DNA from: an uncultured Flavobacteriales bacterium
GTDB lineage: Bacteria; Bacteroidota; Bacteroidia; Flavobacteriales_G; Salibacteraceae
Direction of reading: 5' to 3'
Length of the DNA: 64,000 nucleotides
Assembly (NCBI GenBank): GCA_937121175.1
Contig: CAKZKD010000004.1
Span: 62,001-126,000, forward strand
Position 1 is the first letter of the stretch; each line of letters begins with the position of its first letter. The translations under genes were made by a program, and so were the position numbers. The notes beneath the pieces were generated by a model, which saw only the letters and a program-made list of their open reading frames with translations, did not search any database and had not been told where the DNA came from. Shown here in pieces: positions 22,246 through 37,981 of this stretch.

Positions 22246-23436
22246 ATGCAACAGCTACACATCAATCTTGAACCGGCATTCCACAGAAACTCCGATATAG
22301 TTCTAGTAAAATTTGACTACAACAAAGAGTTAATTTCTAGAGTAAAACAGATTAATGCAAGTTGGAGTCAATCTTTGAGGTGTTGGTACCTTCCTAAAAC
22401 TGCAGAAACTCACAAAATTGTAATTGCTCATTTTAAAGGCATAGCTTGGGTAAATGCTTCTGCTTTGTTTAACGGTAATCAGCCAAAACAGAAACCAATA
22501 GACAAACATTTGACTAACGAAGCGCCTAAATTGAAGAAGAAATCAATTCCGCATATTGAACTTCCCCATGAAATAAGGGAGAAATTGCTTACGAAAAGGT
22601 ATTCGGAAAATACGATTCGCACCTATGAGCAAATGTTGAAGTTGTTTTTTGCTCATTTTAAGAATGTAGATACGCTCAGTAAAAAGGAAATTGAAAGCTT
22701 TTTGAGAGATTTGCAAGAACAGAGAAGGTTTAGTATCAGCAGTCAAAATCAGGTTATAAATGCCATCAAGTTTTATTATGAAAAAGTGCTTGAACGACCT
22801 CAAGAAACATATGAAATAGAACGGCCATTCAAAAAAAGATCGTTACCTAAAGTAATAAGTAAGGAAGAGGTTCAAAGGTTATTGGCCCAGATTAAAAATT
22901 TAAAGCATTTGTCTATTGTAATGCTAATGTACTCTGCTGGTTTAAGAAGGTCTGAAGTAATTAATTTAAAAAAAGGAGATGTAAGCTTAGATAGAGGCGT
23001 TATTCATTTGAAAATGGCTAAAGGGAGAAAAGACAGAATAACCATGCTATCACAAGTTCTTGCTAATGTATTGAAAGAATATGTTCTAGAATATAAGCCC
23101 AATCATTATTTATTTGAAGGGGTAAGAGGAGGGCTATACAGCGCCACAAGTATTGCAAGCATAGTAAAACGAGCTGGAGAGCAAGCAAAAATTCCGTTGA
23201 AGGTAACACCGCATATGTTGCGACATAGTTTTGCTACACATTTAATGGAACAAGGTGTTGAAACAAGGTATATTCAGAAGTTACTAGGGCATTCGTCTTT
23301 AGAAACCACGGCAATTTATGCTCATGTAAGTACAAACCGATTGGAGAGCATAAAAAGCCCTTTAGATGCTCTATATTCTGAGAATGAAATTGAGAATAAT
23401 TTAAAACTTATGAAACGAAATATCAACAATAGTTGA
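22246..23436 (+). CDS. Tyrosine recombinase (Xer-like) at the head of the cassette array
   Basis: A 396-residue integrase. Residues ~1-75 are an extra N-terminal domain (WSQSLRCWYLPKT) not present in XerC/D; ~105-190 is a SAM-like core-binding domain; ~198-370 the catalytic domain with R234 (AGLRRSE), K262 (KGRKDR), H323 and R326 (HMLRHSF), H349 (LGHSS) and Y358 (IYAHV). All catalytic residues are present. The extra loop typical of class-type IntI between the Lys hairpin and HxxR is not seen. Same orientation as the cassettes, stop codon 8 nt before the first junction. It is the obvious candidate for cassette recombination. Confidence 0.9.
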   Translation: MQQLHINLEPAFHRNSDIVLVKFDYNKELISRVKQINASWSQSLRCWYLPKTAETHKIVIAHFKGIAWVNASALFNGNQPKQKPIDKHLTNEAPKLKKKSIPHIELPHEIREKLLTKRYSENTIRTYEQMLKLFFAHFKNVDTLSKKEIESFLRDLQEQRRFSISSQNQVINAIKFYYEKVLERPQETYEIERPFKKRSLPKVISKEEVQRLLAQIKNLKHLSIVMLMYSAGLRRSEVINLKKGDVSLDRGVIHLKMAKGRKDRITMLSQVLANVLKEYVLEYKPNHYLFEGVRGGLYSATSIASIVKRAGEQAKIPLKVTPHMLRHSFATHLMEQGVETRYIQKLLGHSSLETTAIYAHVSTNRLESIKSPLDALYSENEIENNLKLMKRNINNS

Positions 23437-23453
23437 TATTACAAGTTATGCCC
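23419..23453 (+). other. attI-like junction at the end of the recombinase gene
   Basis: AATATCAAC - AATA - GTTGATATT is a perfect 9-bp inverted repeat (23419-23440) that spans the recombinase stop codon and mirrors the AAC...GTT layout of the A-site ends. Five bases later comes GTTATGCCC (23445-23453), the start of cassette 1, matched by GGGCATAAC at the other end of that cassette (29848). This is the place where the array begins, so it is the natural attI candidate. Confidence 0.6.
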
Positions 23454-23460
23454 AATTAAA

Positions 23461-23550
23461 GAAAGCCAGCCGCACAAACAGCACATTTGGTTTTTGCCGA
23501 CACGAAAGCCAACGCAGAAAAAACCAAAAGAGCTGTTTTTTGCCAACGCT
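23461..23550 (+). repeat. B-type structured repeat B1 (cassette 1, 5' side)
   Basis: Arms AAACAG/CTGTTT (23476-23481 and 23533-23538) and TTTGGTTTTT/AAAAACCAAA (23486-23495 and 23519-23528), separated by CACA on the left and AGAG on the right, which pair as C-G with two A-A mismatches. Ends with GCCAACGCT. The remaining 70 nt to the methyltransferase start hold its promoter, without a clear TAnnTTTG. Confidence 0.75.
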
Positions 23551-23620
23551 TTAACAGAATGAAGAAATTAATAAGTAAAATGCGAAATTTGAAAAATGCA
23601 GTTACTACAGAAAAGTTAAA

Positions 23621-24976
23621 ATGAGATTTATAGATTTATTTGCAGGACTTGGTGGCTTTCATAAAGCAATGCACGAACTTGGTCACGAGTGTGTGTTTGC
23701 AAGTGAACTTGACCCTGTTTTAAGAGATACTTACAAAAAGAATTGGGGTAAAAACATCAACATACACGGAGATATCAGAAAGATAGTCAAAGATAATATT
23801 GACCTTATTCCTGACCACGATATTTTATGTGCAGGATTTCCGTGTCAACCGTTTTCAAAGGCAGGAAAACAACTTGGACGAGATGATGACAGGGGAACAC
23901 TCTTTGACGAAATTGTAAAGATTCTTGAAGCGAGAAAACCAAAATTTTTCATTTTAGAAAATGTACGATTCATTGCTAAACATAACAACGAAGAAACTTG
24001 GAAAGCAATGAAAGCTGATTTTGAAAGATTGGGCTATAACGTTGACCACAGAGATTATTCACCGCACGACTTCGGAATTCCACAACACAGACAAAGAATT
24101 TTTATTGTTGGTTCTTTAGGAATTAATGCTCTTGACCATTTTAGTTTTGATAAAGTTGATGAACACAAGAAAAAGGTTGTGAAACTTGAAAAATTCATTG
24201 AAAGCACTCCTGCAAATGCAAGATTCCTTGCAAAAGCAAATCAAGACTGTATTGAGCTTTGGCAAAATTTATTAGACGCATTACCAGAAGATGTAAAAAT
24301 ACCAGGTTTTCCAATTTGGGGTATGGAATTCGGAGCTGATTACCCATTTGAAGAACAATATCCACACTTACTTTCAGCAAAAGAATTAGGCAAATACAAA
24401 GGTAATTTTGGAATTTCATTAAAAGGAATGACAAAAGAAGAGCAGTTGGCAAACCTGCCAAGTTATGCAAGAGTTGAAGCTAAATTCCCCGATTGGAAAC
24501 AGAGATACATTCGAAAAAACAGACTTTTTTACAATGACAATAAAGTTTTTATAGAACAAAGTGCTTTAAAAATTGCTGAATTACCTTCTCAAAGTTGGCA
24601 AAAATTAGAATGGAATGTTGGGGACAATAAAAGAAAAATTAGCAACTATCTATTGCAGTTTAGGGCATCAGGTATCAGGATAAAAAAACCCGACTTCTTC
24701 CCTTCTCTAGTTTGCACAAATACTCAAATACCAATTATAGGATGGCAAAATAGATATATCACCAAAAAAGAAGGATTAAAACTTCAATCTCTTACAGGAT
24801 TGAAACTACCTGAAAATGACAATGCAGCTTTTAAAGCATTAGGAAATGCGGTAAATTCTAAAATTGTGAAACTCATAGCTACTCAACTTTTGGTTGAAGA
24901 AAAAAAAATAAATGGAGTTGCTCCGCAACTCCAATCGTTTCATTCATTATCCAAATCTTATGAGCCAGCAAAATAA
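23621..24976 (+). CDS. DNA (cytosine-5) methyltransferase
   Basis: A 451-residue C5 methyltransferase. Motif I MRFIDLFAGLGG at the N-terminus, catalytic PCQ in AGFPCQPFSKAG (C75), ENV in FILENVRFI (~112-120), QHRQRIFIVG (motif VIII) and a C-terminal LTGLKLPENDNAAFKALGNAV (motif IX/X). First gene of a four-gene modification/restriction cluster in cassette 1; its end overlaps the GHKL gene by 17 bp. In such clusters it protects host DNA. Confidence 0.95.
   Translation: MRFIDLFAGLGGFHKAMHELGHECVFASELDPVLRDTYKKNWGKNINIHGDIRKIVKDNIDLIPDHDILCAGFPCQPFSKAGKQLGRDDDRGTLFDEIVKILEARKPKFFILENVRFIAKHNNEETWKAMKADFERLGYNVDHRDYSPHDFGIPQHRQRIFIVGSLGINALDHFSFDKVDEHKKKVVKLEKFIESTPANARFLAKANQDCIELWQNLLDALPEDVKIPGFPIWGMEFGADYPFEEQYPHLLSAKELGKYKGNFGISLKGMTKEEQLANLPSYARVEAKFPDWKQRYIRKNRLFYNDNKVFIEQSALKIAELPSQSWQKLEWNVGDNKRKISNYLLQFRASGIRIKKPDFFPSLVCTNTQIPIIGWQNRYITKKEGLKLQSLTGLKLPENDNAAFKALGNAVNSKIVKLIATQLLVEEKKINGVAPQLQSFHSLSKSYEPAK
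24913..24933 (+). promoter_or_regulatory. Hairpin before the GHKL gene start
   Basis: TGGAGTTGC - TCC - GCAACTCCA, a perfect 9-bp stem with a 3-nt loop, inside the 3' end of the methyltransferase gene and 26 nt before the likely GHKL start (24960). It could adjust translation or transcript levels at this overlap. No T run follows. Confidence 0.45.
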
Positions 24977-26495
24977 AGTTAGTATTCGACCTCAAGTTAC
25001 AATGCTTTCGGTGTTAAAGCATATAGAGTATGAAACTTGGTTTGCCTTGGCTGAATTTATTGACAACGCAATTGATAGTTACTTAAAAAACATCTCCTCT
25101 CTACAAAAAATTGAGGGTGACAATTTTGTTCTTGATGTAAAAGTTGAAATAAATGAACCTGAAAACCGAATAACAATAAGAGATAATGCAGGAGGAATAG
25201 GTGAATCAGATTATTCGAGAGCTTTTAGAGCAGCCGAAGTACCACCAGACAATTCAGGCCTTTCAGAATTTGGAATGGGTATGAAGTCGGCAGCCTGTTG
25301 GTTTGCTGATAATTGGTGCGTAACATCTACAGCATTAGGAGAAAGTCAATTAAAAAAAGTCTCCTTTGATATGCAAAAAATATTTGAGGACAAATTAGAA
25401 GAATTAGATGTTGAAGTTAAATCTTGCGATAAAAACCACCACTATACGATTGTAGAATTGTTTGATGTTAATCGAATGCCAAGACGAAAGGGCGTTGGAA
25501 AAGTTAAAAACCACTTAAGAAGTATTTACAGGGAGTTTATTCGAAAAGGACATTTAAATCTTACTGTTAACGGTGAAGAATTAGAATTTAAAGACCCAAA
25601 TGTTTTAAATGTTCCTCAATACAATCTACCAGAGAGCGAGTCCATTTTATGGCGGAAGCAAATTGATTTTGAATTAGAAAAAGATTTGAGTGTTAAAGGA
25701 TTTGTTGCAATCAGAGAAAAAGCATCAACATCCGAAGCAGGATTTGCATTGTTTCGCCGAGGAAGAGTTATTCAAGGTAGTTTTGATAATGGTTTTCGAC
25801 CTGATTTTATTTTTGGTGCTCCGAATAGTTATCGTTTTCAAAGGGTCTTTGGTGAACTTCACTTAGATGGATTTAATGTGAATTTCACTAAAAAGGGTAT
25901 TCAATGGGATGAAAACCTTGATGTATTTTTAAGACTTCTTAAAGATGATATTAGCTCAAAAGAATTTCCATTGCTCCAGCAAGCTGAACAATATCGTGTT
26001 CGAGCATCAGAAAAAGAATATAAAGCTTCCTTAAAAGCTCTTAATAAAACGGCTGACGACCTGCAAAAGAAAGCACCGCAAGCAGTTTCAGAAGTTGTTA
26101 ATTCGATTTTAATTTCAGAACCTGAAGAAAGAATTGAGTTAACAAAAACCGAAAAAACACTTCATAGAGAATTTGATATACGGTTTAATAAAGCTGATTG
26201 GAAAGTATCAATTGAACTTTCATATGATACTTCACTTACAGAACTTATCGAAGTTGGTGATAGTTTCATAAAAGAAAAGGTAAATGATTCTTCTGTTCGA
26301 CAAATAGGAATTAGACTTTCGTTGACTCATCCATTTATGGTTGAATTTGCGGGAGCAGACACGAACAAAATTGAACCAATCTTAAGAATCGCAGCAGCTT
26401 TTGGACTTTCTGAAATAATCGCTAAAGACAGCTATAAAAATCAAGGTGAAGTTCGCAGAAATTTCAATGAGCTAATATTCAACCTATCAAAATAA
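24960..26495 (+). CDS. GHKL (HSP90/MutL/MORC-type) ATPase of a restriction cluster
   Basis: About 511 residues. ATP-binding Bergerat fold: N box LAEFIDNAIDS (E32, D35, N36), G1 box ITIRDNAGGIGESD (~75-88), G2 box FGMGMKSAACWF (~105-116), and a later transducer-like region (FALFRRGRVIQG; NFTKKGIQWDENLD). ATG at 24960 gives a normal N-terminus; an in-frame ATG at 24912 would extend far into the methyltransferase gene. MORC/MutL-type ATPases next to a methylase, a Z1 helicase and a nuclease form a described class of restriction systems (Iyer, Abhiman and Aravind). Confidence 0.88.
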   Translation: MSQQNKVSIRPQVTMLSVLKHIEYETWFALAEFIDNAIDSYLKNISSLQKIEGDNFVLDVKVEINEPENRITIRDNAGGIGESDYSRAFRAAEVPPDNSGLSEFGMGMKSAACWFADNWCVTSTALGESQLKKVSFDMQKIFEDKLEELDVEVKSCDKNHHYTIVELFDVNRMPRRKGVGKVKNHLRSIYREFIRKGHLNLTVNGEELEFKDPNVLNVPQYNLPESESILWRKQIDFELEKDLSVKGFVAIREKASTSEAGFALFRRGRVIQGSFDNGFRPDFIFGAPNSYRFQRVFGELHLDGFNVNFTKKGIQWDENLDVFLRLLKDDISSKEFPLLQQAEQYRVRASEKEYKASLKALNKTADDLQKKAPQAVSEVVNSILISEPEERIELTKTEKTLHREFDIRFNKADWKVSIELSYDTSLTELIEVGDSFIKEKVNDSSVRQIGIRLSLTHPFMVEFAGADTNKIEPILRIAAAFGLSEIIAKDSYKNQGEVRRNFNELIFNLSK

Positions 26496-26504
26496 TATAA
26501 GAGA

Positions 26505-28742
26505 ATGTCAGAAATAATCGAAATACAAAATCAAGGCTCAAATGACGATTGGCAACCATTTGTAGGTGAAGAAACGAATGAACTTCTTATAAGTAAGGGA
26601 TTCATAAATTCTGATAGAAGTCTAAATACAGGTGGTGAAAGGATATTAGATGAAACCTATCGAATAATGCAAGTTTGCGGCAATCCTAATGATGATACCA
26701 ATAATGAAACAGGAATTGTAATTGGCTATGTTCAAAGTGGAAAAACACTTTCATTTACCACACTTACAGCATTGGCAAGAGATAACAACTATCAAATTGT
26801 AATTGTAATTGCAGGTGTTTCAACAAATCTTGTAAATCAATCAACCCAAAGGTTAACAGAAGATTTGAGATTGAATACACGCTTTGATAGAAAATGGACA
26901 CTATTGCAAAATCCAAACAGCAATCAGGAAGTTGAAACAATTGAAACAACTCTTGCACAATGGGCAGACCCTACGTTTCCACAGGACAGGTGCAGAACAT
27001 TGCTTATAACTGTAATGAAAAACACCTCTCATTTAAATAATTTGGTAAACATTATTTCAGGGCAAAACCTTGCAGGAGTGCCAACTCTGATAATTGATGA
27101 TGAAGGAGACCAAGCGAGTTTAAATACAAGAGCAAGATGGGCAGCTCGCCAAAATATCGACATTGAAAGTTTAACCGAAAACCAAGTTTCAACAATTTAC
27201 AGAAGAATTAACGCACTTCGCAATATTTTTCCACATCATACATTCTTACAATACACAGCCACACCTCAGGCTAATTTATTCATAAATATTATGGATAGGT
27301 TGTCGCCAAATTTTATAAAACTACTAACCCCAGGTTCGGATTATACAGGTGGTATTGATTTTTTTAGAAACAACCCAAATTTAATTTCAGAAATTCCACC
27401 AAATGAAATACCTAATACGAACAGTCCACTTTTTGAAATACCAGAGAGTTTAAAAAGTGCATTACGAATTTTCTTTTTGGGAGTTGTTGCAGGTGAAATG
27501 CAAAATAACCACAGGAATAGGACAATGCTTGTCCATCCATCAAGACTACAAGGCGACCATAATGAATTTACAAATTGGATAAGAAATACTTGTAATAGTT
27601 GGCAAAGGTTGCTTTCAGGTAATGATAATGAGGATAGAAGAGAACTATTTGACGAGTTTAGAACTTCGTACAATCAGTTAAGTATGACTGTTCCCGATTT
27701 ACCTAATTTTGAAACACTTACAGGCAACGATTTAATTCACGCTTTACGTTACACCCAAATTGTAGAAGTTAACTCCAGAAATGGAGTAACACCACAAATT
27801 CCTTGGAATGATTTCTATTCTTGGATTTTAGTCGGTGGTCAATCAATGGATAGAGGTTTTACAGTTGAAGGCTTAACTGTTACCTATATGCCAAGAAACA
27901 TTGGAACAGGAAACGTAGATACAATTCAGCAGAGAGCAAGATTTTATGGTTATAAGAGAGGGTATTTAGGATTTTGCAGGGTATTCTTAGACCAAGTAAC
28001 TATTGACGCTTACAATTTTATAGTAGAACACGAAGAAGACGTAAGAAACAGATTGTTAGAATTTCATTTAAACGATAGACATTTAAACGATTTTGATAGA
28101 GTTGCCGTATTAAACCAAATGTTAAATCTAACGAGACGTAATATAATTTATGACGATATAGATAGGGATACTTTTGGAAACGATTGGTTTAGAATAAATG
28201 CACCACACGATACAGATGAATTAGTTGAAACCAATAGAAATGCACTTTTAACATTCTTACAAACAAGAGCGGAGATTTTCAACCAAGATGAAGGTCATCC
28301 AAACCGAACAGAAGAACAAAAACACTTGGTTGCAAGAATCACTATTCAAGATTGTTTGGAGAATTTACTTAACAATCTACGTTTCACTAGAGAAAGCGAT
28401 TCAGCAACATACTCAAGCCTAAGAGGGATTTTGAAGGGGTTTATTGAAGAACATCCTAACGAAGAATGTTTAGTCTACTTAATGAGTGCAGATTCAATTG
28501 ATAATTGGACACCACGAACTCGTAGATTAAACCGCAATGATGAAATCCAACAATTATTTCAAGGTCGTAACCCAAGAACAGGAGAAGTTGTTTATCCCGG
28601 AGATTCAGAAATAAAGGACGAGAACATTTTATCAATTCAAATTCACCTTCTAAATTTAAGAGACACAGAATTTTTAAGCGTTCCTACATTAGCAATATGG
28701 ACACCTGAACATATGGGTGCTGATTTAATTAGGCAAGTATGA
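26505..28742 (+). CDS. Z1-domain superfamily helicase-like protein
   Basis: A 745-residue P-loop protein. Walker A GYVQSGKT (74-81), Walker B region LIIDDEGDQASLN, motif III-like YTATPQANLFI, and LVGGQSMDRGFTVEGLTVTYMPR in the second lobe, which together mark the Z1 family of SF2-like ATPases. It lies between the GHKL ATPase (9 nt gap) and the nuclease gene (ATGA overlap). In this cluster it is the probable DNA translocase/helicase of the restriction complex. Confidence 0.9.
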   Translation: MSEIIEIQNQGSNDDWQPFVGEETNELLISKGFINSDRSLNTGGERILDETYRIMQVCGNPNDDTNNETGIVIGYVQSGKTLSFTTLTALARDNNYQIVIVIAGVSTNLVNQSTQRLTEDLRLNTRFDRKWTLLQNPNSNQEVETIETTLAQWADPTFPQDRCRTLLITVMKNTSHLNNLVNIISGQNLAGVPTLIIDDEGDQASLNTRARWAARQNIDIESLTENQVSTIYRRINALRNIFPHHTFLQYTATPQANLFINIMDRLSPNFIKLLTPGSDYTGGIDFFRNNPNLISEIPPNEIPNTNSPLFEIPESLKSALRIFFLGVVAGEMQNNHRNRTMLVHPSRLQGDHNEFTNWIRNTCNSWQRLLSGNDNEDRRELFDEFRTSYNQLSMTVPDLPNFETLTGNDLIHALRYTQIVEVNSRNGVTPQIPWNDFYSWILVGGQSMDRGFTVEGLTVTYMPRNIGTGNVDTIQQRARFYGYKRGYLGFCRVFLDQVTIDAYNFIVEHEEDVRNRLLEFHLNDRHLNDFDRVAVLNQMLNLTRRNIIYDDIDRDTFGNDWFRINAPHDTDELVETNRNALLTFLQTRAEIFNQDEGHPNRTEEQKHLVARITIQDCLENLLNNLRFTRESDSATYSSLRGILKGFIEEHPNEECLVYLMSADSIDNWTPRTRRLNRNDEIQQLFQGRNPRTGEVVYPGDSEIKDENILSIQIHLLNLRDTEFLSVPTLAIWTPEHMGADLIRQV

Positions 28743-29719
28743 ATTTAATAGAACTTTATGATACGCTAAGTTTACCTGAAAATGACAATAAAGTTTTCAA
28801 TGCTATTCCTATTCCAGAATACCCGAATTTTAGAATAGCAATTGATTTTGAAGGAAATGCGGTGCTATTACTCTCGGTATCTAAAAGAATTAAGGATTTG
28901 AGTTTGAAAAATTTTCGTCTTAAATATTTACAACTAGAGCAAAATTTAGAATGTAGAATTTATGAAAATGATTCTTATAAACTTCAAACATTTACTGTGG
29001 TTACATTCCGTTGCAGCGATAGAAACCTCCAAGAATATTTTTTAAGAATTTCAGAAACTCTAGTAAGTACGATAGGTCAGAAACCAACCCAACAGCAAGT
29101 AATTGACTCTCTTAAAAAGTTTGTGGAAGTATTTAAAACATTAACAGATTCTCCAACCAATACAATTAATGGGCTTTGGGCAGAACTTTTTTTGATTGAA
29201 AATTCGAGTAATCCAAAATCGGTAATAAATTATTGGCACAATCTACCAGAAGAGAAATTTGACTTTAATGCAGGTTTAGAAAGAATTGAAGTTAAAAGTA
29301 GCTCCAACTTTGAGAGAAAACATATTTTTTCAGCTGAACAATTGAACCCACCTTCTGACACTCAAGTTTTAATTGCATCCATTTTTTTGAAGCAGCATAA
29401 TTCAGGTATGAATATCCAACAACTTCTTGAAAGGATTTCTAAGAAAGTAAACTATGACTTTGAAACTGCCGACAAGTTAAACTCGATAGTTTTCAGAACA
29501 CTTGGTAGTTCCTTAGAACATTCGATTGGAATTAAATTCGACTACGATATTGCTCTACAATCATTGCAATTTTTTAGACATCAAGACATTGACAAAATCG
29601 AAGAAATCCACATTGGAAATAATGTTTCCGAAGTAAAATATAAATCGGACTTAACAAAGATAAGTCCACTAGAACTAGGAAACCTCAAAGACAAACAAAT
29701 TCTATTCAATGCTTTATAA
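28739..29719 (+). CDS. PD-(D/E)XK motif protein (DUF4420-like), probable nuclease subunit
   Basis: A 326-residue protein. GLWAELFLIE (about 141-150) and FDFNAGLERIEVKSSSNFERKHIFS (about 178-202) contain the E...D...E-x-K pattern of PD-(D/E)XK nucleases (IEVKSS). Start overlaps the Z1 stop (ATGA), so it is the fourth gene of the operon. It is expected to cut DNA lacking the partner methylation. Confidence 0.82.
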   Translation: MNLIELYDTLSLPENDNKVFNAIPIPEYPNFRIAIDFEGNAVLLLSVSKRIKDLSLKNFRLKYLQLEQNLECRIYENDSYKLQTFTVVTFRCSDRNLQEYFLRISETLVSTIGQKPTQQQVIDSLKKFVEVFKTLTDSPTNTINGLWAELFLIENSSNPKSVINYWHNLPEEKFDFNAGLERIEVKSSSNFERKHIFSAEQLNPPSDTQVLIASIFLKQHNSGMNIQQLLERISKKVNYDFETADKLNSIVFRTLGSSLEHSIGIKFDYDIALQSLQFFRHQDIDKIEEIHIGNNVSEVKYKSDLTKISPLELGNLKDKQILFNAL

Positions 29720-29734
29720 AGAAACAGATATAAT

Positions 29735-29821
29735 GCCAACGCTAAAAGCCATACACATTTGCAATTCGCACCAGCCGCCACTAAAGCCAAAATTGCAAAA
29801 GAGTATGTCTTTGCCAACGCT
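29735..29821 (+). repeat. B-type structured repeat B2 (cassette 1, 3' side)
   Basis: CATA/TATG and TTTGCAATT/AATTGCAAA arms with CACA and AGAG between them. It is almost identical to B6 at 45639, which also lies at the 3' side of a cassette. Confidence 0.75.
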
Positions 29822-29847
29822 ACAAACAGAACGGAAAAATGAAAAAA

Positions 29848-29983
29848 GGGCATAACAATGTATATAAAAAATAGGCGAAACAGTAATAAATTCAAGGGTT
29901 TTGGCTCGCGTCAAACTTTGTACTTAACCGAAGGTTTCGTGCTTCGAAATCGCCTACTTTTCATATACTAAACGTTGTGTGCC
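29848..29983 (+). repeat. attC-like site A1 (cassette 1 / cassette 2)
   Basis: Left arm GGGCATAAC is the exact complement of the cassette 1 start (23445). Spacer AAT, inner stem GTATATAAAAAATAGGCGA pairing with TCGCCTACTTTTCATATAC except positions 7 and 12, spacer TAAAC, then GTTGTGTGCC opens cassette 2. In place the outer arms do not pair with each other. Confidence 0.88.
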
Positions 29984-29990
29984 ATGCGAA

Positions 29991-30078
29991 AAAGCCAACC
30001 GCACATTTAGGCACATTTGCTTGCCCCAACGCACGTGCGACCACTTCACAAGCAAAAGAGCCTAAATTTTCCCAACGC
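29991..30078 (+). repeat. B-type structured repeat B3 (cassette 2, 5' side)
   Basis: Perfect arms TTTAGG/CCTAAA and TTTGCTTG/CAAGCAAA with CACA and AGAG between; loop contains GCACGTGC. Precedes the promoter of the metal operon. Confidence 0.75.
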
Positions 30079-30091
30079 TTGAGAATTTTAT

Positions 30092-30131
30092 ATTTAAGTA
30101 TTTGCTTAAATAAGTAATAAATGTAACTTTG
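30092..30131 (+). promoter_or_regulatory. Promoter and operator of the metal-resistance operon
   Basis: ATTTAAG-TATTTG-CTTAAAT (30092-30111) is a 7-bp dyad of the type bound by ArsR/SmtB repressors. Its centre holds TTG (30102-30104), spaced 19 nt from TAACTTTG (30124-30131), a perfect -7 element. The repressor would cover the -33. The ATG follows 4 nt after the -7, so the message has a tiny leader or none. Confidence 0.72.
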
Positions 30132-30135
30132 TTTT

Positions 30136-30510
30136 ATGGAAAATAATTCTTGCATAAGACAACAAGCTGATATTAAACAGATAAATCGTTGTAAAGAGAC
30201 AGTTTCGGAATTAAACGAATCGTTCGACTATTTAGCAAACAGACTTTCATTAGTTGGAAATAGCGTTCGGCTGAAAATACTTTACTTACTCTTTGAGGAA
30301 AAAAGACTTTGCGTTTGTGATTTAAGCGATATTCTTGGTATGAACATTTCTGCAATCTCTCAACATTTGAGAAAAATGAAAGACCGAAATTTAATAGAAA
30401 CGGAAAGAGAAGCTCAAACAATATTTTACTCATTGACAGCGGAATACGAAAAAATGTTAAATCCGTTCTTTGAGATACTTGATAAAAACAAAATCTTGGA
30501 AACGATATGA
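30136..30510 (+). CDS. ArsR/SmtB-family metal-responsive repressor
   Basis: A 124-residue winged-helix repressor. The alpha-3 metal site RLCVCDLSDILG has the CVC pair (C59, C61) used by ArsR/CadC-type sensors of thiophilic metals, and extra Cys6 and Cys19 lie near the N-terminus. HTH: MNISAISQHLRKMKDRNLI. First gene of cassette 2 and preceded by a dyad operator; it overlaps the MerTP gene (ATGA). Metal is unproven; Hg(II), As(III) or Cd(II) are the candidates, with Hg favoured by the neighbour. Confidence 0.92.
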   Translation: MENNSCIRQQADIKQINRCKETVSELNESFDYLANRLSLVGNSVRLKILYLLFEEKRLCVCDLSDILGMNISAISQHLRKMKDRNLIETEREAQTIFYSLTAEYEKMLNPFFEILDKNKILETI

Positions 30511-31121
30511 AAAGTGAAAACAAATTAATTGGTGCAGGTTTGTTAACCGCGATTACAGCTTCATTATGTTGTATTACACCAGTTTTGGCTCTAATCGCAG
30601 GAACGAGCGGAATTGCTTCAACATTTTCTTGGATAGAACCTTTTAGACCTTATTTAATCGGACTGACAATTTTAGTTCTCGGTTTTGCTTGGTATCAAAA
30701 ACTAAAACCTCGTAAAGAAATTGACTGTGAATGCGAAACGGACGAAAAACCAAAATTTATTCAATCAAAGAAATTTTTAGGAATTGTAACTGTATTTGCA
30801 ATTGTGATGTTGGCTTTCCCATACTATTCAGGAATTTTTTACCCAAATACAGAAAAACAAGTAATCGTAGTTGACAAATCGGACATTAAAACAACGGAAT
30901 TTAAAATCAGCGGAATGACTTGTGTGAGTTGTGAAGAACACGTCAATCACGAAGTAAATAAACTCAACGGAATTGTAAACTCAAAAGCGTCCTACGAAAA
31001 TGGAAATGCAATCGTTGAATTTGACAAAACCAAAACCAATGAAAAGGAAATCGAGAAAGCAATTAACTCAACAGGGTATAAAGTAACCGATAAAAAAGAA
31101 AACAAATGGAAGTCCAATTAA
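30507..31121 (+). CDS. merTP: MerTP-like mercury transporter with fused HMA domain
   Basis: A 204-residue inner-membrane protein with three membrane helices. Cys pair SLCCITP in helix 1 (C21, C22), a cytosolic CEC (C74, C76) and a C-terminal heavy-metal-associated domain with GMTCVSCEEH (C139, C142). This combines MerT and MerP in one chain, as is usual in Bacteroidota. No mercuric reductase is encoded nearby, so detoxification after uptake must come from elsewhere or the metal is different. Confidence 0.85.
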   Translation: MKSENKLIGAGLLTAITASLCCITPVLALIAGTSGIASTFSWIEPFRPYLIGLTILVLGFAWYQKLKPRKEIDCECETDEKPKFIQSKKFLGIVTVFAIVMLAFPYYSGIFYPNTEKQVIVVDKSDIKTTEFKISGMTCVSCEEHVNHEVNKLNGIVNSKASYENGNAIVEFDKTKTNEKEIEKAINSTGYKVTDKKENKWKSN

Positions 31122-31312
31122 AATCAGAAATTACTTGTCCAAACTGCGGACATAAAAAAGTGGAGGATATGCCAACTGATGCTTGTCAATTTTTTTACGA
31201 GTGTGAGAATTGTAAAACAGTTTTGAAACCTAATAAAGGGGATTGCTGTGTCTATTGTAGTTATGGTTCTGTAAAATGTCCTTCAATTCAAGAGAAAGAA
31301 AGTTGTTGCTAA
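31106..31312 (+). CDS. Small Cys-rich protein (GDCCVYCSYG type)
   Basis: A 68-residue protein with two zinc-ribbon-like pairs (CPNCGH, CENCK), then GDCCVYCSYGSVKCP and a terminal CC. Ten or more Cys in 68 residues suggests a metal-binding role. It overlaps the MerTP gene by 16 bp. Such small proteins recur in metal operons; function not established. Confidence 0.72.
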   Translation: MEVQLKSEITCPNCGHKKVEDMPTDACQFFYECENCKTVLKPNKGDCCVYCSYGSVKCPSIQEKESCC

Positions 31313-31326
31313 TAAATCAACTACAG

Positions 31327-31349
31327 AAAAACCAAAAGAGCCTGAATTT
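31327..31349 (+). repeat. Half of a B-type repeat inside cassette 2
   Basis: AAAAACCAAA-AGAG-CCTGAATTT matches only the right half of a 5'-class B element (compare B1, B3, B5). The left half is absent. It lies in the 148-bp gap that separates the two parts of the metal operon. The gap also contains a C5 tract (31401-31405), possibly part of a CsoR-type operator, and CACCTTTG as a weak -7. Confidence 0.6.
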
Positions 31350-31460
31350 CCCCTCGTTCGATAGAAAACTAAAAATATTTGAAAATAAACTTGGAGACCA
31401 CCCCCTGACCAGTCGCACCTTTGTACCGTAGTTAATATTAATCATTAAAAACGTAAAACA

Positions 31461-31733
31461 ATGAAAAGACAAATTGAAGTATTTACAGCCGGGTGTCCGG
31501 TATGTGAACCAACTGTAAAAACAGTAAAAGAAATGGCTTGCGACTCTTGTGAAGTAACCGTTTACGACCTTGTTAAACAATGTGACGACAAAGTCTGCGT
31601 AGACAAAATGAAAGAGTATAACATTACTTCTCTACCAGCGGTTGCAGTTAACGGGAAATTACTTGCTTGTTGTCAGAACAGAGGAGTAAGTAAGGAAGAA
31701 TTAGCAGCAGCAGGTATTGGTAAAGCCATTTAA
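31461..31733 (+). CDS. Thioredoxin-like small redox protein
   Basis: A 90-residue thioredoxin/glutaredoxin-fold protein with active-site-like CPVC (C12, C15), a cis-Pro region ITSLPAVAVNG and several additional cysteines (DSCEV, KQCDDKVC, LLACC). It begins the second part of the metal operon and ends in a terminator. Role could be thiol exchange with metal-binding partners. Confidence 0.8.
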   Translation: MKRQIEVFTAGCPVCEPTVKTVKEMACDSCEVTVYDLVKQCDDKVCVDKMKEYNITSLPAVAVNGKLLACCQNRGVSKEELAAAGIGKAI

Positions 31734-31747
31734 TTTATTAACCCATT

Positions 31748-31786
31748 ACCACCCAACTTGCAAATAATGGAGGTTGGGTGGTTTTT
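31748..31786 (+). terminator. Terminator or attenuator within the metal operon
   Basis: ACCACCCAAC and GTTGGGTGGT form a perfect 10-bp stem with a 15-nt loop, followed by TTTTT. It ends 13 nt before the CsoR-HMA start, so expression of the last three genes depends on read-through. Confidence 0.85.
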
Positions 31787-31798
31787 AACTTAATTAAT

Positions 31799-32374
31799 AT
31801 GTTGCCAAGAGATTTGACAAAAGACCTTAAAGACCGACTAAATAGCATTAAAGGTCAGGTTGTAGGAGTAATAAAAATGCTTGACGAAAGCAATGACCCC
31901 GCCCAAATATTAAATCAGTTTAAAGCGGTTAACAAAGGTTTTGAAAAAACTCAGCAGCTTCTTTTAGATGAAGTATTCAGGAAAACTTTGGCAATGAAAA
32001 TTTCGGAGGCATTGGAAGCCTGTCCGGGTAATTGTGGACAAGAAGAACGAATAGCAATTATTAAAAACCAATTTCCTGATTTAGGACTTTACGAACTAAC
32101 AGACAAAATGCAGGAGATTGATAAGATTTATGAATTTTTACTCAATAAAAAGGAAAGTATGAAAGAAATATCATTGACCATTGACAACATGGTTTGTCAG
32201 GGTTGTGCGGAAAAAATATCCGATATTTTAAAGGAAACAAAAGGTGTGGAAGACGTAAATACGAAGGCTATGAAAAAATTAGTGAACATTAAATTTAGCC
32301 CCACTGAAACGAATGAAAAAGAACTCATAGCCACATTGACAAAAGCAGGATATCAACCAAAAGAGGAATTATGA
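31799..32374 (+). CDS. CsoR/RcnR-like repressor fused to an HMA metal-binding domain
   Basis: About 192 residues. Residues 1-70 match the CsoR/RcnR/FrmR four-helix repressor fold (DLKDRLNSIKGQVVGVIKML). The Cys usual near residue 36 in CsoR is absent (DPAQILNQ), while CPGNC occurs at 75-79. Residues ~121-191 are an HMA domain with MVCQGC (C133, C136). ATG 31799 is chosen over an upstream alternative at 31778, which lies within the terminator. A fused sensor-chaperone is unusual; alternatively the repressor part may no longer bind DNA. Confidence 0.75.
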   Translation: MLPRDLTKDLKDRLNSIKGQVVGVIKMLDESNDPAQILNQFKAVNKGFEKTQQLLLDEVFRKTLAMKISEALEACPGNCGQEERIAIIKNQFPDLGLYELTDKMQEIDKIYEFLLNKKESMKEISLTIDNMVCQGCAEKISDILKETKGVEDVNTKAMKKLVNIKFSPTETNEKELIATLTKAGYQPKEEL

Positions 32375-32706
32375 GCATAAGAAAATCATTTGCCTTTTTT
32401 TTGATTCTACAATCATTTCTTCTTGCTTGTTCAGGTAATACTTCTCAAAACAACCAAACAAGCTTAAATGAAGGAAAGGCAAAATCAATTGAAATGCCTA
32501 TTGAAGGTATGAGTTGTATGTCCTGTGTTGCAAATGTTAAAAAGACTTTATCCAGTATGGATGGAGTTAAAGAAGTTAATGTTAGTCTCAAAGATAAAAA
32601 TGCACGGGTTAAGTATGATGCTCTAATTGTTACAGAGGAACAGTTAATAGAAGCAATAAATAAATTGGGCTATCAGGTAGGTAAACCAAAAGAGTTGGCA
32701 GAATGA
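32371..32706 (+). CDS. HMA-domain lipoprotein
   Basis: A 111-residue lipoprotein: signal peptide with lipobox LLAC (Cys20), a short linker, then an HMA domain with GMSCMSC (C49, C52). Probably anchored in the outer or inner membrane and holding metal in the periplasm. It overlaps both neighbours by 4 bp. Confidence 0.85.
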   Translation: MSIRKSFAFFLILQSFLLACSGNTSQNNQTSLNEGKAKSIEMPIEGMSCMSCVANVKKTLSSMDGVKEVNVSLKDKNARVKYDALIVTEEQLIEAINKLGYQVGKPKELAE

Positions 32707-33389
32707 ATTTGGAGCATTTTTTAAACCAATTTTCGTCTACATTTCAAGAAGGTTCAATTTTCAGTTTAGGGCTTGCTTTGTTGGCAGGCGTAATTTCAAG
32801 TGGGGTTTGCCCTTGCACTCTGCCTGTCGGACTTGGATTTGCAGGTTATGTTGGAAGTAATGAAGTGCGGGAATCCAAAACAGGTTTTTCCATTACCTTC
32901 TCCTTTTTTTTAGGCATTATTCTATGTCTGACAATTTTAGGGGCAATAGCAGGCTATGTAGGAGCATTTCTGACTGAAACATTCGGAAAATATTGGGCTA
33001 TCGTAATGGGCAGCGTATCACTTATCGCAGCAGGTATTGCTTTTTATGGACCTTATTTACGTGTGCGTCAACTTGAGACTCTTCGCAGACCAGGAATAGG
33101 TGGATCTTTTGTTTATGGTTTCATTTTTAGTTTAGGAACTTCGGCAGCCCCATTACTATTATTATTATCAGTAGCAGCAGCCAAAGCAAGCATTCTATAC
33201 GGATTAGTTTTAGCCTTTTTGTTTGGTATTGGAAGAGGCTTGCCTTTTTTAATAGTCGGACTTTTTGCAAGTACTGTTTCAAAACTTGCGAAATTAACTT
33301 GGTTACGTAAAAGTATTCAGATTATAAGTGGATTAGCATTACTGTATTTAAGTTTCTATTTTTTCAGACTTTTTAGTTACTATATTTAA
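32703..33389 (+). CDS. CcdA/DsbD-family membrane thiol transporter (ArsG-like)
   Basis: A 228-residue protein with six predicted membrane helices. SSGVCPCTLPVGLGFAGYVG in helix 1 places the Cys pair as in CcdA/DsbD proteins, and this CPCTLP variant is typical of the ArsG-like group. It could deliver reducing power outward or export a thiol-bound metal. Last gene of cassette 2. Confidence 0.75.
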   Translation: MNLEHFLNQFSSTFQEGSIFSLGLALLAGVISSGVCPCTLPVGLGFAGYVGSNEVRESKTGFSITFSFFLGIILCLTILGAIAGYVGAFLTETFGKYWAIVMGSVSLIAAGIAFYGPYLRVRQLETLRRPGIGGSFVYGFIFSLGTSAAPLLLLLSVAAAKASILYGLVLAFLFGIGRGLPFLIVGLFASTVSKLAKLTWLRKSIQIISGLALLYLSFYFFRLFSYYI

Positions 33390-33408
33390 ACAAAACTTGG
33401 CGAAAGTC

Positions 33409-33500
33409 TGCCAACCCTTCACACCCATACACATTGGCAAGTCGCTAATCCAGACACACAAGCCAAAACTTGCCAAAGAGTATGGCTGCCCGACACACGG
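33409..33500 (+). repeat. B-type structured repeat B4 (cassette 2, 3' side)
   Basis: CCATA/TATGG and TTGGCAAGT/ACTTGCCAA arms with CACA and AGAG between. The arms differ from B2 and B6 but keep full pairing (TTTG changed to TTGG with a matching change on the other side). Confidence 0.75.
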
Positions 33501-33514
33501 AAAAAAGAAAGCAC

Positions 33515-33650
33515 GGGCACACAACAATGTGTATAAGCAATAGCGGGTGGAGTAGTAATTTGAAGGTTCTTGCATTTAACCTATTTTTGTAGTGGCGGAC
33601 AGTAATCGCTCCGAAATCCGCTACTGCTCATACACGGAACGTTGTGCTTA
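33515..33650 (+). repeat. attC-like site A2 (cassette 2 / cassette 3), with internal promoter match
   Basis: GGCACACAAC is the exact complement of the cassette 2 start (29974). Inner stem GTGTATAAGCAATAGCGG pairs with CCGCTACTGCTCATACAC except positions 7 and 12. Cassette 3 opens with GTTGTGCTTA. The loop contains TTG (33560-33562), 19 nt, TATTTTTG (33582-33589), a full promoter match pointing at the next ORF. Confidence 0.88.
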
Positions 33651-33666
33651 ATGCCGAAAAAACCGA

Positions 33667-34701
33667 ATGCCAGAAATCGAAAACATAAAACAGTTTGCAC
33701 TTTTAGAGGAATTTGAAACCTCTGACAAGCTGATTAAATTAGGTTTTGGCGAACTTCAAAATATCAACCTAAATAACGACTTTTACTTCCTTCCTTTTCA
33801 GCTTTTATCCCAAGGATTTGAAAGGTTTATGAAAGCATACATTTGTATAGGACATTATCATAAACACCAAGAATTACCAAATTTTAGATATCTCAAAAAC
33901 TTAGGACACGATTTAGAAAAGTTACTAAAGGAAATAATAGACAATTATTACTTCGACTTCGATAGACCACAATTTGACTTAGATAATGAATTCATCCTTA
34001 CTAATTCAGATTTAAAAGAACTTCTTTTTATTCTTTCTGAGTTCGGGAAATTAGCAAGATATCACAATTTCGATTTGATTACTGAGAATACACGAATTGG
34101 AATTAATGCAAGAAAATTATGGGAAGATTTTGAAAATAAACTTCTTGACAAAAAAGACTACGAAAAACTAATGAACTTCGACTTAAACCACGAAGTTTAT
34201 CAAAAAATAACAAATCATATTATTATCATATTTGAGAAGTTTGTTTCTGCATTATCAAGACAATTTATTTTCAAGTGTTTAGGACAAAAAGGTTTGCAAT
34301 TATCTGCAACAACAGTTTTTGACTTTGGTATGTTATACGATAAAGATTTCGGAAAGAAAGATTATAGAAGTCAAACTACAAGATATAAGCAAACACCTAA
34401 AAAAGAACATAAAAGAACTGTAATTGACGAATTACAAAGGAATATAAATCCAAATTATAAGTCGAGAAAAATAAACAAAACTGAATATAATGGAGATTGG
34501 CCTTTTTACGCTGACGAAGTAATTATCGAATGTAGAGAAAACCATTGGTGCATTGTAACTATTGATGGTTTGGACTTTGCTTTGAATGGTTCAGCAAGCG
34601 GACGATATAAATTGGAATTTCCTCACGATGCAGGAAGAGCTATTTTAGGAAAAAGTGTATCTGATTTTATAAAAATGGCTTTCGATTTGAATAAAGAATA
34701 A
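33667..34701 (+). CDS. Unknown protein, possible HEPN-like N-terminal domain
   Basis: A 344-residue protein not firmly recognised. The stretch LLSQGFERFMKAYICIG followed by LGHDLEKLLKEII looks like the two core helices of HEPN-type domains, and the C-terminal ~100 residues (WPFYADEVIIECRENHWCIVTIDGLDFALNGSASG) look like a separate beta domain. Sole gene of cassette 3, starting 26 nt after the junction. A defence or toxin role is a guess from context. Confidence 0.65.
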   Translation: MPEIENIKQFALLEEFETSDKLIKLGFGELQNINLNNDFYFLPFQLLSQGFERFMKAYICIGHYHKHQELPNFRYLKNLGHDLEKLLKEIIDNYYFDFDRPQFDLDNEFILTNSDLKELLFILSEFGKLARYHNFDLITENTRIGINARKLWEDFENKLLDKKDYEKLMNFDLNHEVYQKITNHIIIIFEKFVSALSRQFIFKCLGQKGLQLSATTVFDFGMLYDKDFGKKDYRSQTTRYKQTPKKEHKRTVIDELQRNINPNYKSRKINKTEYNGDWPFYADEVIIECRENHWCIVTIDGLDFALNGSASGRYKLEFPHDAGRAILGKSVSDFIKMAFDLNKE

Positions 34702-34706
34702 AGCAC

Positions 34707-34908
34707 TAAGCACAACAACGTGTATAAAACATAGCTAATATAGGCTTTCCGAAAGGTTCGTTTATATTTATAAAGTCCGCCAAATTTTTAAATTTGGCTT
34801 TTAAGATTGATAAGTTAAAAACAAAACATAAAAATTCGGCTCTGTGTTTATCCGAAAAGTTAGCGTCTTTTTACACGCTACGTTTCATACACAAGACCGT
34901 TAGCGGTA
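34707..34908 (+). repeat. attC-like site A3 (cassette 3 / cassette 4), long form
   Basis: TAAGCACAAC exactly complements the cassette 3 start (33641). Inner stem GTGTATAAAACATAGC pairs with GCTACGTTTCATACAC except positions 7 and 12. Spacer AAGACC, then GTTAGCGGTA. The 202-bp length comes from the loop, which holds a perfect hairpin GCCAAATTT-TT-AAATTTGGC (34779-34798) followed by TTTT, overlapping TAAATTTG (34789-34796), a -7 match. Confidence 0.85.
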
Positions 34909-34938
34909 ATTTAAAAACCAAAATCACGATAAATCAAA

Positions 34939-35832
34939 ATGATAATAAACCGAAAAATTCCCATTAAATTCTTTTTCAATGAAATTAAAGTTCCGTTATT
35001 AACTGTAACATTATTAGGATTAGCTTTTGGCATAGCACCAAAATATTTTCCTGACTTTACCCCAGATATCCCTATCGGGATTGCCACAACATTGGGAATT
35101 GCCATATCCATATTATTGTCTTATAAAATTAATCAATCCTATAATCGGTGGTGGGAAGCACGAACCATTTGGGGAGCCATTGTAAACGACAGTCGATCAT
35201 TGGTGTTGCAATTGCAATTGTATTTAAATGAAGATGATGCATTGCTTCATAAAATTTCTCATTATCAAATTGCTTGGTGTTATGCGTTGGATAAATCATT
35301 AAGAAAACAAGACATTTTTAAGAGTTTGGAACACCTATTAAGCAATGAAGATTTAGAAAAAGTCAAAACACAATCCAATATTCCGTTGGCGATAAACCAA
35401 TTGCAAACCAAAGCCGTGAGAACACTTTACAAAAACGGTAGGTTTGATGAATTTGCTCGTACCCAACTTGAAGAAACCTTGACAAGATTAGTCGCTTCAA
35501 TGGGAAAATGCGAACGGATTAAAAACACCGTTTTCCCGCCAACGTATGGGCAAACTTTGAATATAGCCATTTATCTATTTGTCATTTTCTTAAGTCTTTC
35601 CTCGGTGTTGGAGTTAAATCTATTGCTACAAATCATCATTTTAACATCTATTTCTATGGTGTTTTTCTTTTTACAAAAATTAGCACATCAACTGCAAGAC
35701 CCGTTTGACAATCATCCGACCGATACGCCAATGACAGCCTTGTCGAGAACTATTGAAATTAACATTCGTCAATTATTGAACGAAAAAGATATTCCAAATC
35801 CAATGGAACCCAACAAGTTTTACTTAAACTAA
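34939..35832 (+). CDS. Bestrophin-like ion channel
   Basis: A 297-residue membrane protein of the bestrophin/UPF0187 family. ISILLSYKINQSYNRWWEARTIWGAIVNDSRSL is the family hallmark, and LQDPFDNHPTDTPMTAL is the conserved C-terminal segment. These form pentameric anion or cation channels. First gene of cassette 4, 5 nt before uvrB. Confidence 0.92.
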   Translation: MIINRKIPIKFFFNEIKVPLLTVTLLGLAFGIAPKYFPDFTPDIPIGIATTLGIAISILLSYKINQSYNRWWEARTIWGAIVNDSRSLVLQLQLYLNEDDALLHKISHYQIAWCYALDKSLRKQDIFKSLEHLLSNEDLEKVKTQSNIPLAINQLQTKAVRTLYKNGRFDEFARTQLEETLTRLVASMGKCERIKNTVFPPTYGQTLNIAIYLFVIFLSLSSVLELNLLLQIIILTSISMVFFFLQKLAHQLQDPFDNHPTDTPMTALSRTIEINIRQLLNEKDIPNPMEPNKFYLN

Positions 35833-35837
35833 AAAAT

Positions 35838-37805
35838 ATGTCAGCAGACACTTTCATCTTACATTCCAAAAACATTCCAGCAGGTGACCAACCTATGGCA
35901 ATTGCCGAATTGATTTCAGGCATTGAAAATGGTTTACACCACCAAACATTGAAAGGAATTACAGGCTCTGGCAAGACTTTCACGATGGCGAATATCATCC
36001 ATAGAATGAAACGACCAACGTTGATTTTGGCACCCAATAAAACCCTAACGGCACAGCTTTATGAGGAAATGAAAGTGCTCTTTCCCGAAAATGCCGTGGA
36101 GTTTTTTGTGTCTTATTACGATTATTTTCAGCCTGAAATGTATCTGCCCAGTAACGACCGTTTTATAGAAAAAGATTCTTCCATCAATGAACAATTGGAA
36201 CGATTGCGACTTTCAACCACCAAATCATTAATCGAGCGGAGAGATACGATTGTTGTAGCTTCGGTTTCTTCCATTTACGGATTGGGCGACCCTAATGATT
36301 ATCGGGCTTTGCAAGTGCATCTTGAAGTTGGAAAACCAATCCATTTAGAAGAGTTAGAAAAAGGTTTGGCACAATTGCAATACAGCCGAACCGAGCGAAG
36401 TTTAAAGCGAGGAACTTATCGAATAGAAGAAAATTTGGTAACCATTTTTCCTGCGGACTCTGAATTTAAAGCGGTTCAATTGAATTTGAAAAATAATAAA
36501 ATTTACACACTAAAATTTATAGATCCCGCTTCGGGAAATTATTTGGAAGATATTTCAGAATATTTTGTTTCTCCGAAAACACTTTTTGCTCCATCTAAAA
36601 TTCAAGCAAGCGAAGTTGCCGCTAAAATTATGGAAGATTTGGATGAGCGTTTGGAAGAACTCAATCGTGAAAACCGACTGAAAGAAGCCGACCAGTTACA
36701 CGAACGAATTACCAATGATGTGGAAATGCTTCGCACGGCAGGTTATTGTTCGGGAATGGAAAATTACGCCAGTTACTTTAGTGGACGTGACCCTAAATTA
36801 CCACCGATCACCTTGATGGATTATTTACCAAAAGACGGATTATTGTTTATTGATGAATCGCACGTCATGATTCCGCAGATTTCGGCCATGTTCAAAGGCG
36901 ATCAAGCTCGAAAAGACACGCTGATTGATTATGGTTTTCGGTTACCTTCCGCCAAGCATAATCATCCGTTGAGTTTTGAAGAATTTGAAAAACTAAAACC
37001 GCAAACCATTTTTGTTTCGGCTACGCCAGGAAAATATGAATTAAAAGTTTCAAAACAAATCGTTGAACAAGTGGTACGACCAACAGGATTGCTTGACCCA
37101 ATTGTAGAGGTTCGCCCGAAAGAAAATGCCATTGAAAATTTGTTGGGCGAAATAAAAACCTGTGTAGATGCAGGTAATCGTGTTTTAATTACAACGCTTA
37201 CCAAAGTTTCAGCCGAAAATCTTCACGAATTTATTACCAACAAAGGTTTTAGAGTTCGGTATTTACATTCCGATTTTAAGACTACAGAACGCACCGAAAT
37301 CATCAACGGTTTACGAGCAGGCGATTTTGACATTCTCATTGGCATTAGCTTGTTGCGTGAAGGATTGGATATTCCGGAAGCTTCATTGATTGCCATTTTA
37401 GAAGCCGACAAAGCAGGGTTTTTACGTTCAGCCAATGCACTCATTCAAATGATTGGTCGCGTTGCCAGAAATGTGAACGGAAAAGCCATTTTGTATGCCG
37501 ATAAGATAACTCCAGCAATGGAACAAGCCATCAGCGAAACCGAAAGCCGAAGAAAACGCCAAATAGCATACAACGAAGTACATAAAATTGCACCCGTTTC
37601 ATCTGCTCGAAAAATGAATGTAGAAAGCGAAGATGAAACCTTTACGCATTCAGAGAACTTCTGTGAAAATCTTGAAGAACTTTGCGAACGAATCACCGAA
37701 AAGGAACAGGAATTATTAGAAGCATCTGATAAAAAAGATGAAAAGAGAATTGGAAATATCCGCCAGCAACTAAATGGACTATATCGACAGTATATCTATG
37801 TTTAA
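35838..37805 (+). CDS. uvrB: Excinuclease ABC subunit B
   Basis: A 655-residue full-length UvrB, the damage-verification helicase of nucleotide-excision repair. Walker A GITGSGKT (40-47), beta-hairpin segment YYDYFQPEMYLPSND, DESH box, QMIGRVARN (motif VI) and the C-terminal UVR motif that contacts UvrC. No break is seen. A core repair gene as cassette cargo is surprising; whether the chromosome also has another uvrB cannot be seen here. Confidence 0.97.
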   Translation: MSADTFILHSKNIPAGDQPMAIAELISGIENGLHHQTLKGITGSGKTFTMANIIHRMKRPTLILAPNKTLTAQLYEEMKVLFPENAVEFFVSYYDYFQPEMYLPSNDRFIEKDSSINEQLERLRLSTTKSLIERRDTIVVASVSSIYGLGDPNDYRALQVHLEVGKPIHLEELEKGLAQLQYSRTERSLKRGTYRIEENLVTIFPADSEFKAVQLNLKNNKIYTLKFIDPASGNYLEDISEYFVSPKTLFAPSKIQASEVAAKIMEDLDERLEELNRENRLKEADQLHERITNDVEMLRTAGYCSGMENYASYFSGRDPKLPPITLMDYLPKDGLLFIDESHVMIPQISAMFKGDQARKDTLIDYGFRLPSAKHNHPLSFEEFEKLKPQTIFVSATPGKYELKVSKQIVEQVVRPTGLLDPIVEVRPKENAIENLLGEIKTCVDAGNRVLITTLTKVSAENLHEFITNKGFRVRYLHSDFKTTERTEIINGLRAGDFDILIGISLLREGLDIPEASLIAILEADKAGFLRSANALIQMIGRVARNVNGKAILYADKITPAMEQAISETESRRKRQIAYNEVHKIAPVSSARKMNVESEDETFTHSENFCENLEELCERITEKEQELLEASDKKDEKRIGNIRQQLNGLYRQYIYV

Positions 37806-37828
37806 TAGCAAAAATGGAAATGAAAAAC

Positions 37829-37964: not shown

Positions 37965-37981
37965 AAGGTAAAAACTAATAA

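Follow-up and report, generated by a model that had tools for sequence, protein, structure and literature searches.

Where do new gene cassettes enter an array that follows a tyrosine recombinase gene, and does the hairpin at the end of that gene mark the spot? We address this question for an uncultured Flavobacteriales bacterium (family Salibacteraceae), within a stretch of 64,000 nucleotides (GCA_937121175.1, contig CAKZKD010000004.1, positions 62,001 to 126,000; hereafter the window). We find that positions 23419-23447 are likely to be the attI site of an integron-like cassette platform, with its recombinase encoded directly upstream. No experiment supports this assignment, and our confidence in it does not extend to the folding of the site, which is weighed separately below.

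The dyad and the cassette array in the window

The stop codon of the recombinase reading frame, TGA at 23434-23436, falls within the right arm of a perfect 9-bp inverted repeat on the + strand, AATATCAAC-AATA-GTTGATATT, which has a 4-nt loop (Table 1). Four nucleotides separate this dyad from the G of GTTATGCCC, so that the first cassette junction starts at the fifth nucleotide after it. The inverted partner of GTTATGCCC, GGGCATAAC, lies at 29848-29856, at the 3' end of cassette 1. An earlier note had described a perfect dyad across the recombinase stop codon, just 5' of the first junction, and for the window this description held. A transcription terminator was tried as a candidate for the dyad and rejected (no T-run follows it, and a terminator scan had no match there), as was a known RNA element (no Rfam match at the gathering score).

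Taken in isolation, the window dyad is unusual, not extreme: p is ~0.01 against dinucleotide shuffles of the 50 nt preceding the junction. Folded as DNA, its two strands give z = -4.2 and -4.3, and 1 of 200 shuffles folds equally well. Because the single-locus score is weak, we base no claim on one locus, and the case is made from relatives.

Seven recognizable cassettes lie between 23445 and 46807. Each starts with GTT and a private sequence and ends with that start inverted, followed by a hairpin site that runs up to the next GTT (start/end pairs include GTTATGCCC/GGGCATAAC and GTTGTGTGCC/GGCACACAAC). The last two boundaries were set by eye, since automatic 9-mer chaining gave false junctions near array ends (e.g., after 45762 and 50347) and a false GTT for cassette 6. 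Across relatives, the attC-like sites are hairpins of 39-199 nt. Stems are clear in 37 of them. The spacer that follows AAC is mostly 3 nt long and the one that precedes GTT mostly 5-6 nt, and the stem is commonly broken by an A.C mismatch whose A lies on the left strand. We show by genome comparison that the cassettes are bounded in this way. Cassette-specific complementary ends, an L''/L' stem, and unequal spacers are the anatomy of integron attC sites.

Table 1. Positions of the platform's features in the window.
Feature	Position	Strand	Evidence
Platform tyrosine recombinase (396 aa), with an N-terminal domain of ~100 aa ahead of the SAM-like and catalytic domains and without the IntI-specific insert	22246-23436	+	Pfam, TIGR02249, 2A3V alignment
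Dyad of the likely attI, AATATCAAC-AATA-GTTGATATT	23419-23440	.	Inverted repeat, DNA folding, position and covariation in relatives
Spacer ACAA, dyad to crossover triplet (4-7 nt in most relatives)	23441-23444	.	Sequence and relatives
GTTATGCCC: crossover triplet GTT and start of cassette 1, R'-type half-site	23445-23453	+	Inverted partner GGGCATAAC; related-locus identity stops at GTT
Cassette 1: DNA cytosine methylase, GHKL ATPase, Z1-domain protein, DUF4420 PD-(D/E)XK protein (restriction-type set)	23445-29973	+	GTTATGCCC/GGGCATAAC, next GTT at 29974; Pfam
attC-like site of cassette 1: R'' GGGCATAAC, L''/L' stem, GTT	29848-29976	- (bottom strand shown)	Inverted match, folding
Cassette 2: ArsR-type regulator, MerT/HMA proteins, DsbD-type protein	29974-33640	+	attC-like site 33516-33643
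Cassette 3	33641-34898	+	attC-like site from R'' (ends 34716) to GTT at 34899
Cassette 4: bestrophin; UvrB-like helicase	34899-37955	+	attC-like site 37829-37958
Cassette 5: Cap4-type nuclease and 566-aa protein	37956-40942	+	attC-like site 40817-40945
Cassette 6: N6/N4 DNA methylase and ResIII helicase	40943-45879	+	attC-like site to GTT at 45880; end set by eye
Cassette 7: PIG-L deacetylase; last recognizable junction	45880-46807	+	Short attC-like site to GTT at 46808

The cargo of the array (23621-45638) is rich in defense genes, namely the methylase/ATPase/Z1/DUF4420 set, the Cap4-type nuclease, and the methylase/ResIII pair, and also holds a mercury/heavy-metal set. Several cassettes share a conserved leader of ~120 nt right after GTT (AGCCRCCGCAC...AGCACATTTGG...CCAAAAGAG...), seen at 23445-23560, 29974-30100, and 40943-41060, with similar starts in four other loci (L007, L017, L014, and L010). 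This leader may carry promoter or regulatory signals, which is no more than a possibility.

Insertion point and symmetry of the site in relatives

Homologous recombinases occur in 18 of the 35 genomes searched from the family (E <= 1e-60) and in 29 of 395 from the class (E <= 1e-80); further homologues came from at least 80 named loci. Draft contigs often end less than 200 nt from the recombinase gene (L015, L019, L022, L026, L128, L140, and L168), as expected if repeated attC-like sites break assemblies; such arrays will be under-counted. The closest recombinases found are only ~47% to 53.5% identical to that of the window, and the natural insertion experiment therefore comes from relatives, not from the source species.

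Five pairs of related loci are alike through the recombinase end, the dyad, and GTT, and differ from there on: L174/L176 (Maribacter), G022/G020, L117/L142, L112/L141, and G054/L129. In addition, a complete tet(X2) cassette, with its own attC-like site, is identical at 1327 of 1327 bases in two places, with edges at GTT and unrelated flanks. It follows an attC-like site on a Sphingobacterium faecium plasmid (L196, 5001-6327), and in a genome of the phylum Bacteroidota it follows a recombinase reading frame and a dyad ending in ATAAGCGA before GTT (L187, bottom strand, 1483-2809). Together, the locus pairs and the tet(X2) cassette show, by comparison of genomes, that cassettes change immediately 3' of the dyad. 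The identical unit in two contexts shows that cassettes are mobile, on comparative evidence only.

The dyad itself was assessed at 59 loci, in which the start of the first cassette was found independently of it, as a GTT whose next 9-13 nt recur inverted downstream; any false junctions among them, of which there may be a few, would only weaken the signal. The best inverted repeat in the 50 nt before GTT has a mean score of 7.25, compared with 4.64 for shuffles and 4.24 for 295 control windows of the same loci (Mann-Whitney test against the control windows, p = 6e-19). Scores of at least 9 are reached at 36% of loci and in none of the 295 control windows. When the dyad center is fixed at 11-24 nt before GTT, 49% of sites score at least 8, against 2.3% of 472 controls (p = 5e-22). 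The centers of sites scoring at least 8 mostly lie 15-19 nt 5' of GTT, at about 17 nt; that of the window, with its 9-bp arms, lies at 15.5 nt, at the edge of the usual range. The distance from dyad to GTT is constrained, whereas that from dyad to stop codon varies from overlap to 160 nt. The consensus preceding GTT is approximately TATCCAATT. We sought by eye a conserved upstream R''-like AAC partner in attI and found one in some sites only.

We also show that the two arms covary. The arms of a single site pair at 9 or more of 10 positions in 39% of sites, compared with 0.7% of chimeras made from two sites. Among the best 36 sites, pairing at offsets 0-10 is 72-100%, compared with the 27-60% that independent arms would give, and further out it drops to 31-36%; the arms are thus ~11 bp at most. 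These 36 sites were picked for pairing at offsets 1-10, so that the edge is partly set by selection. The informative parts of this test are the chimera comparison and the variety of pairs, all four Watson-Crick types being present at inner offsets 3-6. Many dyads are palindromes without a loop, and in several relatives such palindromes are perfect. About a fifth of sites have weak dyads (e.g., G022, G028, G338, L158, and L119), and a perfect hairpin is therefore not essential everywhere. In close relatives, pairs have been broken about as often as compensated (114 versus 119). Where recombinases are at least 72% identical, the arms vary widely at their inner positions, in many cases with compensation, and symmetry is largely kept.

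The earlier note had proposed the dyad as a candidate attI, to be given up if arrays were kept without the dyad, or if first cassettes differed at another coordinate. The comparison of relatives with different first cassettes was run, and neither outcome occurred: the position and symmetry of the dyad, not its sequence, are conserved in array-bearing relatives, and first cassettes differ at one point, the GTT just 3' of the dyad. The candidate is thus supported by position, covariation, and natural insertion pairs, without experiment.

Three other parts of that note fared less well. Placement on the stop codon is true of the window and fails as a general feature, since at other loci the stop codon is usually 27-160 nt upstream of the junction. 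An AAC/GTT polarity like that of cassette ends also fails: the inner AAC/GTT is not conserved (relatives have CAC..GTG, GGAACATGTTCC, and others), and so this polarity is not why the dyad matters. Both features are incidental. Finally, no data support the suggestion that cassettes are read from the recombinase promoter, and relatives hint that the 3' end of the gene contains a distinct promoter. Of the 59 relatives, 21 have the Bacteroidota-type -7 motif TANNTTTG, most often at 50-60 nt 5' of GTT (22 copies versus 2.7 expected). This enrichment partly coincides with a conserved Leu-Asp-Leu codon run in some loci, and the exact motif is absent in the window. A Pc-like promoter in this position is thus a tentative reading.

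The recombinase and the possible use of the site

The window recombinase matches Pfam Phage_integrase (1.1e-40), and its catalytic pentad and tyrosine (R234, H323, R326, H349, Y358, and K259/K262) are invariant or nearly so among 43 relatives. Against TIGR02249 (NCBIfam integron integrase), it scores 199.6 bits, below the cut-off of 265, and matches in two pieces. The IntI-specific insert (I2) is missing: residues 187-243 of the 2A3V chain have no counterpart, with 14 residues opposite them in the window recombinase. Matches to TIGR02249 across Bacteroidia split around positions 180-240. An IntI-specific additional domain near patch III is held to be necessary for activity (PMC9668308). A profile search of the source genome found no IntI above the TIGR02249 cut-off, and such a match occurs in only 1 of 295 Bacteroidia genomes.

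In our tree, IntI clusters with the platform recombinases, apart from Xer rows (support 97/95), and a single clade of platform recombinases is not rejected (AU p = 0.24). This tree holds only 3 IntI and 3 Xer rows, with thin Xer sampling and long branches, and three rows were taken from alignments. An AlphaFold model of the recombinase (pLDDT 87) resembles structures of XerA (4A8E; Z 24.0, rmsd 8.6 over 257) and IntI (2A3V; Z 19.7, rmsd 3.2 over 250). The source genome also encodes XerC/D-like proteins, and it contains a second, split recombinase copy (L050; G000:C1:6551-7679) with its own attI-like GTTATATAACGA before GTT and a cassette. This copy could be a degraded second platform.

That the neighboring recombinase does the joining is inferred, as its linkage to the site suggests. 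In our proposal, a circular cassette would be joined at the GTT triplet 3' of the dyad, and each new cassette would therefore become the first, co-directional with the recombinase gene. The dyad would be a functional part of attI, consisting of two inverted arms of up to 11 bp each. Its downstream arm stands ~6 bp from GTT, the spacing of a tyrosine-recombinase (Xer-type) half-site, mirrored by the upstream arm. The L half-site bound by the recombinase may be the downstream arm, and the R half-site GTTR, an inference for which there are no binding data. The site may be used as a folded hairpin or cruciform, like attC sites. The evidence on this step is finely balanced; we rank folding above the alternative because close relatives vary freely at the inner positions of the arms, yet mostly retain the symmetry.

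The strongest rival explanation is that attI is used as a duplex, in which the inverted arms are two recombinase-binding sites, one a core half-site and one accessory, and the symmetry reflects one protein on both arms. The accessory arm would then play a part like that of the additional IntI1-binding repeats in attI1. Several points favor this reading: the arms are 11 bp, which matches the length that Xer-type recombinases bind, and stand ~6 bp from GTT; loop-less palindromes fit a double-stranded site bound by a dimer no less well than they fit a hairpin; the dyad lacks the A.C mismatch of attC-like stems; and attI is double-stranded in known integrons (PMC8946536). However, if the inner half were read sequence-specifically, it would be difficult to explain why inner arms change so widely, and often with compensation, where recombinases share 72% identity or more, and we hold the duplex reading to be slightly the weaker of the two.

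A second, unlikely explanation is that another enzyme, a true IntI or XerC/D, moves the cassettes and that the adjoining recombinase is a passenger. The XerC/D-like proteins of the source genome allow for this, and the role of the recombinase is only inferred. Against it stand the lack of an IntI above the cut-off in the source genome and in all but 1 of the 295 Bacteroidia genomes, the recombinase gene adjoining the junction in dozens of loci, and the grouping of array-linked recombinases with IntI against the Xer rows. It is very unlikely that the dyad is a transcription terminator or a recombinase mRNA hairpin that merely lies beside the insertion point; it does sit at the 3' end of a gene, where mRNA hairpins are common, but its distance is constrained to GTT and variable to the stop codon. 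A chance palindrome in AT-rich DNA, which the modest p value of the window dyad by itself would permit, is all but excluded by the class-wide positional and covariation signal.

Relation to integrons, Xer/dif modules, and tet(X) units

The platform resembles integrons (IntI/attI/attC; class 1 and chromosomal) in having a recombinase gene beside the insertion site, tandem GTT-delimited cassettes with complementary R''/R' ends, attC-like asymmetric spacers and stem, the newest cassette adjoining the recombinase gene, and a recombinase that groups with IntI in a small tree. In contrast, its recombinase lacks I2, a domain regarded as a defining one for integrons, falls below the TIGR02249 cut-off, and has an extra N-terminal domain, and its recombinase gene is co-directional with the cassettes. 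The R-box is GTTR in all 59 first cassettes, although the search imposed GTT only, and is variable thereafter, with the consensus GTTRRRY fitted by only 5 of 59. Stems have A.C mismatches instead of the usual extrahelical bases. The attI is built round a covarying dyad of at most 11 bp per arm, compared with just GGGC-AGTC-GCCC for attI1 in L199. Thus, the platform probably works like an integron, its function being inferred from genome comparison, yet it is not an IntI integron by membership.

Like the platform, Xer/dif systems and pdif modules have a tyrosine recombinase without I2, and in both the arms measure ~11 bp and the central region ~6 bp. They differ in their boundaries, which in dif modules are repeated 28-bp dif sites and in the platform are cassette-specific complementary ends with long hairpin sites, and in that the platform has a dedicated recombinase.

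The "xerD" of Acinetobacter xerD-tet(X) units (PMC7530245, PMC7473080) is a member of the platform family, 53.5% identical to the window recombinase. On Acinetobacter plasmids, this gene is followed by GGATATATACGCCATTTGGCGTATAGCCACTT and, across the junction, GTTATGTGCC, and then by tet(X5) or tet(X3) as the first cassette, with the same attI architecture (L177:4070-6969, NZ_CP040912.1; L197:2403-4352, NZ_CP094257.1). Such units have been described as ISCR2-linked, with no integron or cassette recognized, and in Empedobacter, xerD is reported in the opposite direction (PMC7530245, PMC7473080). Whether XerD mobilizes tet(X) was left as an open question (PMC7473080). Since the Acinetobacter xerD belongs to the platform family, with an attI and tet(X) in first place, the platform provides a concrete hypothesis for this question and offers an explanation for "xerD" next to tet(X).

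Integron surveys report almost none in Bacteroidetes, with one complete integron in Bacteroidetes proper, that of Salinibacter ruber (PMC9024848). We found no description of the platform in the open-access literature searched; most subscription journals and all bioRxiv preprints were outside this scope. A search based on IntI would miss the platform, which combines cassette arrays and an attI with a recombinase that has no IntI domain. It also gives a sequence rule by which such cassettes and insertion sites can be found, and it bears on the puzzle of how the I2 domain and attC sites could each have been selected before the other existed (PMC4792948).

A bolder reading, which we regard as possible, is that this is a widespread form of cassette capture in Bacteroidota, with attI and attC both folded, carried out by an I2-less sister lineage of integron integrases. 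It would perhaps represent a stage before IntI gained its domain, and it may be a source of tet(X) cassettes for other Gram-negative bacteria. At the strength of our main conclusion, the hairpin at the end of the recombinase gene is likely to mark the entry point of foreign cassettes in a widespread integron-like capture system of Bacteroidota, one that also carries tet(X) resistance cassettes.
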